Shown piece after piece: positions 4,330 to 40,502 of a DNA stretch of 64,000 nt. This DNA comes from an uncultured Shimia sp. (GTDB lineage: Bacteria; Pseudomonadota; Alphaproteobacteria; Rhodobacterales; Rhodobacteraceae). The stretch is from NCBI RefSeq assembly GCF_947498095.1, contig NZ_CANMJE010000004.1:186001-250000 (forward strand). Direction: 5' to 3'. Below the pieces are notes generated by a model that was not told where the DNA came from, did no database searches, and saw only the letters and a program-made list of their open reading frames with translations. Positions within the stretch are counted from its first letter, which is position 1. Each line of letters starts with the position of its first letter. Both the position numbers and the translations under genes were made by a program.

Positions 4330-4343
4330 TTGATCCGGATCAA
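4330..4343 (+). promoter_or_regulatory. FNR/FixK-type box before formate/nitrite channel
   Basis: TTGATCCGGATCAA matches TTGAT-N4-ATCAA at all ten defined positions and is fully palindromic. The centre is 41.5 bases upstream of the A of the channel gene's ATG. If this is a class II site, transcription would begin at the ATG itself; CATCCT at 4366-4371 sits where the -10 should be (three of six consensus positions). No Shine-Dalgarno precedes that ATG, which fits a leaderless message. FNR-type control of FNT-family channels is well known. Confidence 0.8.
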
Positions 4344-4377: not shown

Positions 4378-5160
4378 ATGACGCAGGACAACCCCACCGG
4401 GCTTGACGCCTATAAACCCGCCGAGATCGCGCATTTGGTTGAAACTGCAGGTGTGGCCAAGGCGAAACTCGGGCTTGCGCAGACGCTGTGTCTGGCTGTG
4501 CTGGCCGGGGCTTTCATCGGCTTTGGCGGGGCCGCCTACACAATGGTGATGACCGGGGCCGATCCGGGTTTTGGACCTGCGCGCCTCTTGGGTGGCGTGG
4601 TGTTCTCACTTGGGTTGATCCTCGTGGTCGTCGGTGGGGCCGAGTTGTTCACCGGCAACGCACTGATGGTCATGGCCGCGGTGGATCGCAAGATCACGCG
4701 CGCCGCACTCTTCAGGAATTGGGGCATCGTGTTTGTGGGCAACCTGATCGGTGCGGTCGGGCTGGCCGTTGCCTTTGGCATGACCGGGATACTGGACGGG
4801 CCGATGGGCGCTACCGCACGGGCCATTGCCGATGGCAAGGCAACCTTGACACCGATTGAGGCGTTGGTGCGCGGTGCGCTGTGCAACGCGCTGGTCTGTC
4901 TCGCGGTCTGGCTGACCTTTGCCGCCCGAACAGCGGCCGGTAAGATCCTCGCCATTCTATTTCCCATATCGGGCTTTGTGATGCTTGGCCTCGAACACTC
5001 CATCGCCAATATGTATCTCTTCCCCCAAGGCATCGCGGCTGGGTCGGATGTCACTGCGTGCGCCATTGTCGGCAACCTGTTCTGGGTCACATTGGGCAAT
5101 ATCATCGGGGGGGCTGGCGGCGTCGCGCTGTCATATCGCTTTGCCTATCTGCGCGGCTAG
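4378..5160 (+). CDS. Formate/nitrite transporter (FNT/FocA-NirC) family channel
   Basis: A 260-residue integral membrane protein with about six hydrophobic segments and the FNT signature GAELFTGN at about 87-94, followed by a second conserved motif in LVCLAVWLTFAART and LGLEHSIANMYLFPQG. Family members are pentameric channels for formate, nitrite or related monovalent anions across the inner membrane. No formate or nitrite metabolism genes are adjacent, so the substrate is open. Start ATG at 4378, which lacks a visible Shine-Dalgarno; the upstream FNR-type box centred at -41.5 suggests low-oxygen induction and possibly a leaderless transcript. An upstream in-frame extension to 4165 is not protein-like. 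Confidence 0.92.
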   Translation: MTQDNPTGLDAYKPAEIAHLVETAGVAKAKLGLAQTLCLAVLAGAFIGFGGAAYTMVMTGADPGFGPARLLGGVVFSLGLILVVVGGAELFTGNALMVMAAVDRKITRAALFRNWGIVFVGNLIGAVGLAVAFGMTGILDGPMGATARAIADGKATLTPIEALVRGALCNALVCLAVWLTFAARTAAGKILAILFPISGFVMLGLEHSIANMYLFPQGIAAGSDVTACAIVGNLFWVTLGNIIGGAGGVALSYRFAYLRG

Positions 5161-38985: not shown

Positions 38986-39240
38986 TCAACCCTCGGCAAG
39001 TTTGCCCAATAGCCCTCGGTTCAGGCAATAATCCGGGGCTTGCGGAGCACTGTCATGTTCGGCCAACCAACCTTTGCATTCGCCCACATCTTTGCAGTGC
39101 GTGCAGGTCATTACGGCGTTTCTGTACTCTTTGACCATTTCCGGGTTTTCAACCAGAACCTCTGACCAGTTCACGCCGACCTTACCTGACATAGTGCCCA
39201 TCAGGTTCGAATGATCGTCAATTTTCTTAAACAGTTTCAT
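38986..39240 (-). CDS. DUF6455 family protein, fourth of tandem array
   Basis: 84 residues, no signal peptide. Cysteines at 46, 49, 55 and 72 in CTHCKDVGECKGWL and PDYCLN match the pattern shared by all four array members. The N-terminal half is helical and contains GVNWSEVLVENPEMVKEYR. The pattern suggests a small metal or Fe-S site, or a redox pair; the function is unknown. Its start overlaps the stop of the upstream member by four bases (ATGA). It is the last member before dgkA. Confidence 0.85.
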   Translation of the reverse strand: MKLFKKIDDHSNLMGTMSGKVGVNWSEVLVENPEMVKEYRNAVMTCTHCKDVGECKGWLAEHDSAPQAPDYCLNRGLLGKLAEG

Positions 39241-39530
39241 GGTTTTCTCCTCCCGGCTGGGGGTGTCGGATGCTTAAGCGCCTGAAACAAGTCGGCATGC
39301 TGGCAACATGCCGGTGCGGCGTCGGCGCGGTGGCTTTGTTGGCCAAGCCAGGCTTCGCACTCATGCACAAAATGGCAGGATCGACAGCGTGTGACCAAAT
39401 CGGCATAGGCTTTTTGAGACAAGTTGCCCTCGGCCATAGCCTCGCTCAGCGATACACCCATTGCCCGCGCGACACTGCGTGTCATCCAAAAGTGGCGCGC
39501 TGGATCGCCCAACGGCAACACGTTGCTCAT
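39237..39530 (-). CDS. DUF6455 family protein, third of tandem array
   Basis: 97 residues: DPARHFWMTRSVARAMGVSL at the N-terminus, resembling the next upstream member (QNAHFWLVQRMAQLTETDL), then CRSCHFVHECEAWL (C49, C52, C58) and PACCQH (C75/C76). Overlaps its neighbours on both sides by ATGA, so all members should be translated together and in similar amounts. The basic tail (PPAGRRKP) is specific to this copy. Function unknown. Confidence 0.84.
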   Translation of the reverse strand: MSNVLPLGDPARHFWMTRSVARAMGVSLSEAMAEGNLSQKAYADLVTRCRSCHFVHECEAWLGQQSHRADAAPACCQHADLFQALKHPTPPAGRRKP

Positions 39531-39805
39531 GTCTCAATCTCCTCTAGGGCCGCCCGAAGGGCGGAGAAACGTTCTTGATTGCGGCAGGTGTCGGGCGCCT
39601 CTTCAACCGGCACGCCTTCTCGCAGGGCGAGGAACTTGCGGCACTCGCTGGTCCAGTCACACCCTCGGCATTCCTGAACCATCGCGGCCCAGTCCTCTTG
39701 GGTGAGTTTTGCGGCGTCCATGGCGGCGACCAGATCAGTTTCAGTCAGCTGCGCCATACGCTGTACCAACCAAAAATGTGCGTTCTGATCACCGAGAGGT
39801 TTCAT
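39527..39805 (-). CDS. DUF6455 family protein, second of tandem array
   Basis: 92 residues starting MKPLGDQNAHFWLVQRMAQL. C46, C49 and C55 (CRGCDWTSECRKFL) and C74 (PDTCRN). The start at 39805 is chosen because its ATGA overlaps the stop of the first member and the N-terminus then aligns with the third member; a longer frame to 39931 would run through the first gene. Function unknown. Confidence 0.84.
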   Translation of the reverse strand: MKPLGDQNAHFWLVQRMAQLTETDLVAAMDAAKLTQEDWAAMVQECRGCDWTSECRKFLALREGVPVEEAPDTCRNQERFSALRAALEEIET

Positions 39806-40065
39806 CCATGTGCCTCTTGCAGCCGTCGGATCAATTGGGGATTGGTACAATGATCCGGAGGGGGCGCTGTCGCCACGTCCACGCGCTTGAGCCACAATGC
39901 GCAATCGTCGGAATGTCCGCAGCCTTGACACCTGATCACGGCTTCAACCGCATCATTCAACGAAGCGCGTGCCGAACTGGCAGACTGTCGTTGGTGTGTT
40001 GTCGGCCCCCGCCCCTTGCGATCGGGCTGGATCGTCGGGCGTGAATTCTTAAGAGGCATCGTCAT
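39802..40065 (-). CDS. DUF6455-like protein, first of tandem array
   Basis: 87 residues. The C-terminal half carries the array pattern, CQGCGHSDDCALWL (C46, C49, C55) and PDHCTN (C73), at the same positions as the others. The N-terminal half (about 1-35) is basic, rich in Ser, Thr and Arg, and unlike the HFW-type N-termini of members two and three, so this copy is divergent. GGAG lies seven bases before the ATG, the only free ribosome binding site of the array. The FNR-type box at 40125-40138 stands upstream. Confidence 0.8.
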   Translation of the reverse strand: MTMPLKNSRPTIQPDRKGRGPTTHQRQSASSARASLNDAVEAVIRCQGCGHSDDCALWLKRVDVATAPPPDHCTNPQLIRRLQEAHG

Positions 40066-40124
40066 TGGCAGGCTCCAGTTCGCGTTCTCGGTGTGAACGC
40101 TATCATGGGCGCGGGAAATTCCCT

Positions 40125-40138
40125 TTGACCTGCATCAA
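40125..40138 (-). promoter_or_regulatory. FNR/FixK-type box before the DUF6455 array
   Basis: On the minus strand: TTGATGCAGGTCAA, a full match to TTGAY-N4-RTCAA. TAGCGT (plus-strand 40097-40102) begins exactly 22 bases after the box, as in class II FNR promoters. The predicted transcription start near 40090 leaves a 25-base leader with GGAG well placed for the first DUF6455 gene. Confidence 0.72.
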
Positions 40139-40145
40139 CCGCCGG

Positions 40146-40502
40146 TCAGGCGTTGACCGCCTCGACGTAGGCGCGCACGCAATCCTGCACTCGGCGAAAC
40201 CGATCTCCACCGAGTTTTGTTCCTCCATACCAACGGGTTACGACAACAATTTGATCGTACAAGCCTTCGCGTTCGAGCATGCGGACGATCACCATTCCGG
40301 CACCGCTCTCGCCATCATCGCCCTTGAGTGGCGTCCCGTCAGACCAAAGAACTGCCCAAGTATTGTGCGTCGCCTTGGCAAACTTCTTGTCCCGTTTGAG
40401 GGTCTTGAGAAATGAGTCGACATCAGAGCGGTTTTTCACCGGACCGCCAGAAACCGCGTATTTCGATCCGCGATCCGAAACCACCCCTGTCAGTTGCAGC
40501 AT
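40146..40502 (-). CDS. YigZ/IMPACT (UPF0029) family protein
   Basis: 118 residues. The IMPACT N-terminal domain signature is complete: ATHNTWAVLWSDGTPLKGDDGE and then RWYGGTKLGGDRFRR. Typical YigZ proteins have about 200 residues with a second ferredoxin-like domain; only the first domain is here, as in some alphaproteobacterial short forms. The family is linked to translation control but has no settled biochemical role. It starts five bases after the M48 gene, so the two are co-transcribed. Confidence 0.85.
   Translation of the reverse strand: MLQLTGVVSDRGSKYAVSGGPVKNRSDVDSFLKTLKRDKKFAKATHNTWAVLWSDGTPLKGDDGESGAGMVIVRMLEREGLYDQIVVVTRWYGGTKLGGDRFRRVQDCVRAYVEAVNA

Follow-up and report, generated by a model that had tools for sequence, protein, structure and literature searches.

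The FnrL regulon of the Rhodobacterales includes cco, hemA, hemN, uspA and other genes, and the locus described here resembles these targets in carrying the same site, in the class II position, in a genome where the regulator is present. Its genes encode small proteins of the family DUF6455 (PF20056). As the first-pass annotation stated, no function is established for this family; the Pfam entry gives none, and neither do those parts of the literature that were searched. There, DUF6455 appears by name in one of 5.39 million papers, as a row in a table of PMC11819568 (a log2 change of 1.67 with ethylene in Azospirillum, in the portion of the paper seen), and PF20056 does not appear. The main-text passages seen of the FnrL regulon papers PMC2908626 and PMC5398030 do not name DUF6455; its locus tag may stand in their supplementary tables, and the former lists one FNR-core "hypothetical protein" set (2905). 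The sections seen of PMC4999443, PMC12281610 and PMC10890935 likewise hold no description of it. Tandem DUF6455 subfamilies and their control by FNR are not described in the portions of the literature searched.

A second likeness lies in the cysteines of these proteins, which are spaced C-x2-C-x5-C. The same spacing occurs in the [4Fe-4S] sites of WhiB-like proteins and of endonuclease III. It is also that of C20, C23 and C29 in E. coli Fnr, as given in the part of PMC5398030 seen. The genome comparisons below, in which gene order and promoter site are largely retained across a bacterial family, suggest that the uncharacterised DUF6455 regularly belongs to the low-oxygen response.

A four-gene DUF6455 array in Shimia

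The window, a stretch of 64,000 nucleotides from an uncultured Shimia sp., carries four DUF6455 genes (g1 to g4) head to tail on its minus strand, with an FNR-type box ahead of g1. The features are as follows:

40146-40502, minus strand: UPF0029/YigZ-type gene (Pfam PF01205), upstream neighbour of g1 on the same strand
40125-40138, minus strand: FNR/FnrL-type site TTGATGCAGGTCAA before g1, palindromic, an exact loose box common to 103/124 arrays
40097-40102, minus strand: predicted -10 element TAGCGT (TAnnnT), its letters matched to the consensus of 102 promoters
39802-40065, minus strand: g1, 87 aa, DUF6455 subfamily A (tree), with an aberrant N-terminal half and all four Cys kept
39527-39805, minus strand: g2, 92 aa, DUF6455 subfamily B (tree), ATGA overlap with g1
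39237-39530, minus strand: g3, 97 aa, DUF6455 subfamily C (tree), ATGA overlap with g2
38986-39240, minus strand: g4, 84 aa, DUF6455 subfamily D (tree), ATGA overlap with g3

The box sits in the 80-bp gap that separates the UPF0029/YigZ-type gene from g1, and by this evidence that gene is a neighbour, outside the unit formed by the array. The likeness of the four proteins to DUF6455 consists in scores above the Pfam curated cut-off of 23.7 bits, which we used as the threshold for membership (g1 45.2, g2 85.8, g3 78.1 and g4 81.1 bits; 4/4 above). No other gene of the host genome exceeds this cut-off, the three further matches having E values of 0.7-0.9. The translations agree with the first-pass description of four small proteins sharing C-x2-C-x5-C and a later fourth Cys. 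The triplet stands at residues 46, 49 and 55 in three of them, as described, namely g1, g2 and g4, and at 49, 52 and 58 in g3, and the fourth Cys follows 16-18 residues past the triplet in all four. The ATGA overlap reported for every junction is indeed found at 3/3.

Among named relatives, those nearest to g3 come from four Shimia genomes (68-79% identity), followed by Salipiger genomes (53-57%). A search with g3 at E 1e-5 of 72,556 plasmid records, from which near relatives of the host genome are possibly absent, gave no match. We built a midpoint-rooted tree of 264 DUF6455 domains from the host's bacterial family and defined the subfamilies as the largest groups holding one anchor only, the anchors being g2 (B), g3 (C), g4 (D) and a Shimia orthologue of g1 (A). 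Supports are 0.93 for B, 0.87 for A, 0.76 for D and 0.53 for C, which is weakly supported. The g1 of the window itself falls in subfamily A.

Along the 85 positions of the DUF6455 profile, g2 matches 1-84, g3 4-83 and g4 1-84, while g1 matches 28-84 only. Its first 27 residues (window 39985-40065) lie outside both the Pfam match and the match to the subfamily A profile, and are also unlike the relatives aligned; the reading frame is open throughout this interval and the Cys half is normal. The g1 orthologues in four Shimia loci (L038-L041) have a normal N-terminal half. A frameshift was considered as the origin of the odd half and found no support, since neither of the other two frames gave a useful score with the subfamily A profile.

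Of 101 loci of the host's bacterial family with flanks, 61 have at least one of three ORFs near the array, an HExxH ORF with the size of M48, one of the UPF0029 type or a RimO-like one, as assigned by motif and clustering and not by Pfam in each locus. These recurring neighbours mark a conserved chromosomal address and give no functional clue. In six loci (L086, L097, L109, L124, L146 and L171) an ORF for a CDGSH-type iron-sulfur protein is found on the opposite strand, 0.5-1.3 kb downstream of the point where the first domain starts, with the Pfam match checked in L171 only.

An FNR-type box is conserved ahead of DUF6455 arrays

One loose box alone is weak evidence, because the window holds five TTGA-N6-TCAA matches where 1.3 are expected, two of the five fitting the stricter TTGAY-N4-RTCAA. 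We therefore rely on its conservation before related arrays. The sample comprises 124 distinct arrays from 121 loci of the host's bacterial family, taken from the window, higher-scoring DUF6455 matches and relatives of g3; it is not random, and weak members are under-represented because arrays were drawn mostly from higher-scoring matches. In 103/124 of these arrays an exact TTGA-N6-TCAA is found no more than 300 nt ahead of the first domain, against about 0.6 expected, the background being 22 other boxes in 1,332,871 bp of the same loci, or 0.0047 per upstream window. In 97 of the 103 box-bearing arrays the nearest box is 82 to 120 nt ahead of the first domain. The strict form, sought in a 70-nt window, is present exactly in 97/124, with at most one mismatch in 115/124 and with at most two in 119/124, compared with 1, 5 and 87 of 1216 background windows. 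The box before these arrays is therefore not a product of chance. The first-pass annotation had proposed an FNR-type box in class II geometry before the first gene and had named absence of the box from related genomes as evidence to the contrary; it is instead found in most of the related arrays, and 102 promoters aligned on the box support the geometry as well.

In this alignment, base 5 of the half-site is C or T in 102/102 promoters, and 99/102 have A or G at the mirror position. The search pattern left this base free, so its conservation is an independent check. Furthermore, a G follows the box flank at +8.5 in 98/102, and a TAnnnT element is apparent at a fixed distance from the box centre (T at +29.5 in 52/102, A at +30.5 in 69/102 and T at +34.5 in 74/102). 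A -10 element would lie at this position for a box with its centre at -41.5, which supports the class II geometry; the box centre in the window would then lie at -41.5 from a predicted transcription start near 40090.

The host genome encodes FnrL (NF045989, 463.8 bits, cut-off 300) and contains 31 TTGAY-N4-RTCAA sites, TTGATGCAGGTCAA among them, against 3 for a reversed control pattern. One strict site lies 15 bp ahead of the first matched codon of fnrL. Elsewhere in the window, a perfect FNR palindrome, TTGATCCGGATCAA (4330-4343), precedes a gene for a formate/nitrite transporter (about 4378-5160, plus strand; TIGR00790 at 207.5 bits, short of the cut-off of 232.3) by about 41 bp, measured to the likely gene start; this gene is probably another FnrL target.

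DUF6455 outside the host's bacterial family

A class-wide sample yielded a match in 19/385 genomes, four of the 19 belonging to the host's bacterial family; two of the outside matches are below the cut-off and their ORFs are doubtful. In two other alphaproteobacterial families DUF6455 occurs in 10/18 and 11/75 genomes. Of 38 outside ORFs with the motif, some of which are the same gene met again in overlapping loci, 15 have an FNR-type box in the 650 nt before the first Cys, against 1.6 expected. The counts are 9/12 in family f66, 1/16 in family f93 and 5/10 in the remainder.

Most outside members have a Pro directly after the fourth Cys (CPN). A Pro after Cys is also found in many ferredoxins. 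Thirteen outside loci were viewed with their flanks, and their neighbours vary between genomes by eye. Two of them are beside iron-sulfur genes: in one the DUF6455 gene stands before the gene for ErpA (L158:6658-7062), and in the other it lies about 1.4 kb after the gene for IscS, with a TenA-type gene between (L157:3756-5015). The other 11 have no iron-sulfur neighbour by eye.

In one outside genome (L058, L159) an ORF for a family-4 glycosyltransferase ends in DUF6455 as its C-terminus, and the outside proteins of L057, L059 and L067 have an apparent N-terminal membrane helix by eye. Tandem DUF6455 pairs occur in another alphaproteobacterial family (L191, L193 and L194), with no FNR box there. 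A DUF1127-like N-terminal extension was considered for outside members and rejected (E 0.09 in 1/10 proteins).

Four conserved cysteines and a putative metal site

Four Cys are present in 263/264 domains of the host's bacterial family, the remaining domain being truncated, and no domain had been excluded beforehand for absence of Cys. The spacing C-x2-C-x5-C with a later Cys is found in 249/264. In 14/78 subfamily C domains, which are counted among the 263, the second Cys has moved to give C-x4-C-x3-C with a later Cys (L174, L109 and L086 are examples). In a 50-row alignment a Pro and a Leu are invariant besides the four Cys.

The AlphaFold model of g4 (pLDDT 95.5, pTM 0.84) consists of five helices (3-20, 25-31, 35-46, 52-61 and 75-83), and Cys 46, 49, 55 and 72 are in loops or at or near helix ends, which in this model is the placement that a metal site would need. 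The model of g3 is weaker (pLDDT 79.0). Foldseek against the PDB returned nothing significant, the best E being 6.8 for g4, with g3 unmatched. A search of PDB sequences with the DUF6455 profile found no solved relative (best E 0.15, a zinc finger peptide), and a Pfam search of 50 members gave no significant match to an iron-sulfur family, with 1/50 matching Zn_ribbon_RPAB4 at E 0.026. DUF6455 proteins are likely to bind a metal, and for the Cys4 site our preference would be an iron-sulfur cluster over zinc, given a ligand spacing like that of FNR, the setting, and the neighbours found outside the family.

Structural zinc would instead make these proteins zinc-knuckle adaptors for protein or nucleic acid, induced by FnrL and not themselves oxygen-sensitive. 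Four invariant Cys in a small domain would suit such a site, as would the ability of the second Cys to shift in subfamily C, and the chance-level matches just described are to zinc fingers. The CPN motif at the fourth Cys of most outside members and the two members adjoining iron-sulfur genes point the other way, neither of them decisively. We regard zinc as rather unlikely, though a serious competitor, and keep an iron-sulfur cluster as the preferred ligand of the site.

DUF6455 tracks FnrL across genomes

Among 295 genomes of the host's bacterial family, 174 have DUF6455 and 259 have FnrL. DUF6455 is present in 172/259 FnrL-positive genomes versus 2/36 FnrL-negative ones (Fisher p 8e-13, uncorrected for kinship). 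Both FnrL-negative carriers are incomplete genomes (84% and 71% complete), and among the 260 genomes of good quality (completeness of 90% or more, contamination of 5% or less) DUF6455 occurs in 156/231 with FnrL and 0/29 without. DUF6455 is not essential to having FnrL, since 87/259 FnrL-positive genomes are without it. Control of the array by FnrL is well supported by these distributions and by the promoter comparison.

The box could alternatively serve a NO-sensing regulator of the Dnr/Nnr type in place of FnrL, with the proteins belonging to denitrification. Anr and Dnr sites are indistinguishable according to the part of PMC5398030 seen, and the host genome has NosZ. DUF6455 is indeed present in 60/73 NosZ-positive versus 114/222 NosZ-negative genomes (p 2e-6), and among FnrL-positive genomes only the association has p 7e-4, both values being uncorrected for kinship. 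However, 114/174 DUF6455-bearing genomes have no NosZ, and the tie to FnrL is tighter. We consider this reading unlikely and retain FnrL as the probable regulator.

Array composition and probable separate partners

The first-pass annotation suggested that gene order be compared across relatives. The order A-B-C-D is mostly kept and the set is not obligatory. Among the 124 arrays, the patterns are A-B-C (32), A (18), A-C (16), D (11), A-B-C-D (8), C (6), A-B, B-C and B (5 each) and others (18), and 8/124 depart from the order (A-C-A 2, A-C-A-C 1, D-C 2, D-B 2 and B-A 1). A single gene of a single subfamily makes up 40/124 arrays, counted per place, so that the same genome may hold another subfamily elsewhere.

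With the g1 of the window left out, mean identity between subfamilies is 0.22-0.33 in the N-terminal half and 0.32-0.41 in the Cys half, and within subfamilies 0.34-0.48 and 0.37-0.45, a comparison that is partly circular because the tree that defined the subfamilies was built from these very sequences. The earlier view that each copy has a different N-terminal half while the Cys part is kept stands in the sense that N-terminal halves are specific to subfamilies. Its wording has to be corrected: g2 to g4 match nearly the full length of the DUF6455 profile, and g1 does not. Diversification for distinct partners, which was proposed from the same observation, is a reading that subfamily-specific N-terminal halves fit and do not demonstrate. 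Separate partners are favoured here because the N-terminal halves differ and single-subfamily arrays are frequent.

The earlier annotation also proposed a multi-subunit system of even stoichiometry, that is, an obligatory complex of four subunits in equal numbers made by coupled translation. The three ATGA overlaps of the window are compatible with coupled synthesis here, and the A-B-C (32/124) and A-B-C-D (8/124) arrays speak for such a complex. As a general rule, however, translational linkage does not hold, because four-base overlaps occur at only 60/140 array junctions and are absent at 80/140. Even stoichiometry is further weakened by the many arrays with one gene of one subfamily and by those with A-C alone, and the g1 of the window lacks a normal N-terminal half. 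An obligatory complex is thus quite improbable, and separate partners remain the preferred reading. Least likely by far is an accessory role in low-oxygen photosynthesis, with bacteriochlorophyll or carotenoid genes: FnrL controls bacteriochlorophyll genes in Dinoroseobacter shibae (in the part of PMC5398030 seen), but among 80 genomes DUF6455 occurs in 16/32 with reaction-centre genes and 30/48 without (p 0.36, no association), and this role is already disfavoured.

Discussion

Our best explanation, which we hold to be probable but by no means secure, is that DUF6455 proteins are metal-binding adaptors induced by FnrL at low oxygen, with iron-sulfur rather than zinc as the metal and with separate partners for each subfamily. 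The four genes would form one transcription unit that is turned on at low oxygen by FnrL, which is active when oxygen is absent, and the conserved promoter anatomy suggests that FnrL binds the box 41.5 bp before the transcription start for class II activation. The products would be ancient paralogues, none identical to another, of a small domain built wholly of helices, in which the four invariant Cys, C-x2-C-x5-C-x(about 17)-C, presumably form one metal site, more likely iron-sulfur than zinc. Subfamilies A to D have different N-terminal helices, which in each of them probably hold a different partner. Each protein would thus be a separate low-oxygen adaptor or redox-labile effector and not a subunit of a fixed four-part complex.

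Some observations count against this adaptor reading or sit uneasily with it. The shifted Cys spacing in part of subfamily C is not what an FNR-like cluster would obviously lead one to expect, and the lack of a profile or fold link to any iron-sulfur or zinc protein in our searches counts against an iron-sulfur adaptor. The single box among the 16 motif ORFs of f93 also counts against the adaptor reading, as do the 87 FnrL-positive genomes without DUF6455 and the 11 outside loci without an iron-sulfur neighbour. A family found in 174 of the 295 genomes sampled has no assigned function and no solved relative found by these searches, and with its strongly conserved promoter site and an occurrence that follows FnrL it stands out as an unusually consistent unexplained output of the low-oxygen response.

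The C-x2-C-x5-C core of DUF6455 is common to the [4Fe-4S] sites of FNR, WhiB-like proteins and endonuclease III, which place their fourth Cys differently and with which we found no sequence or fold similarity. A bolder proposal, which we put forward tentatively and consider unlikely, is that DUF6455 proteins are a new class of free-standing, single-domain [4Fe-4S] mini-sensors, with the ligand spacing of FNR and without a DNA-binding domain, that would be made under FnrL and switched or destroyed by O2 or NO, each form gating a different partner. If this is true, the mini-sensors A to D would add, beneath FnrL, a second layer that responds to oxygen or NO, in principle much as the Wbl proteins do in actinobacteria.
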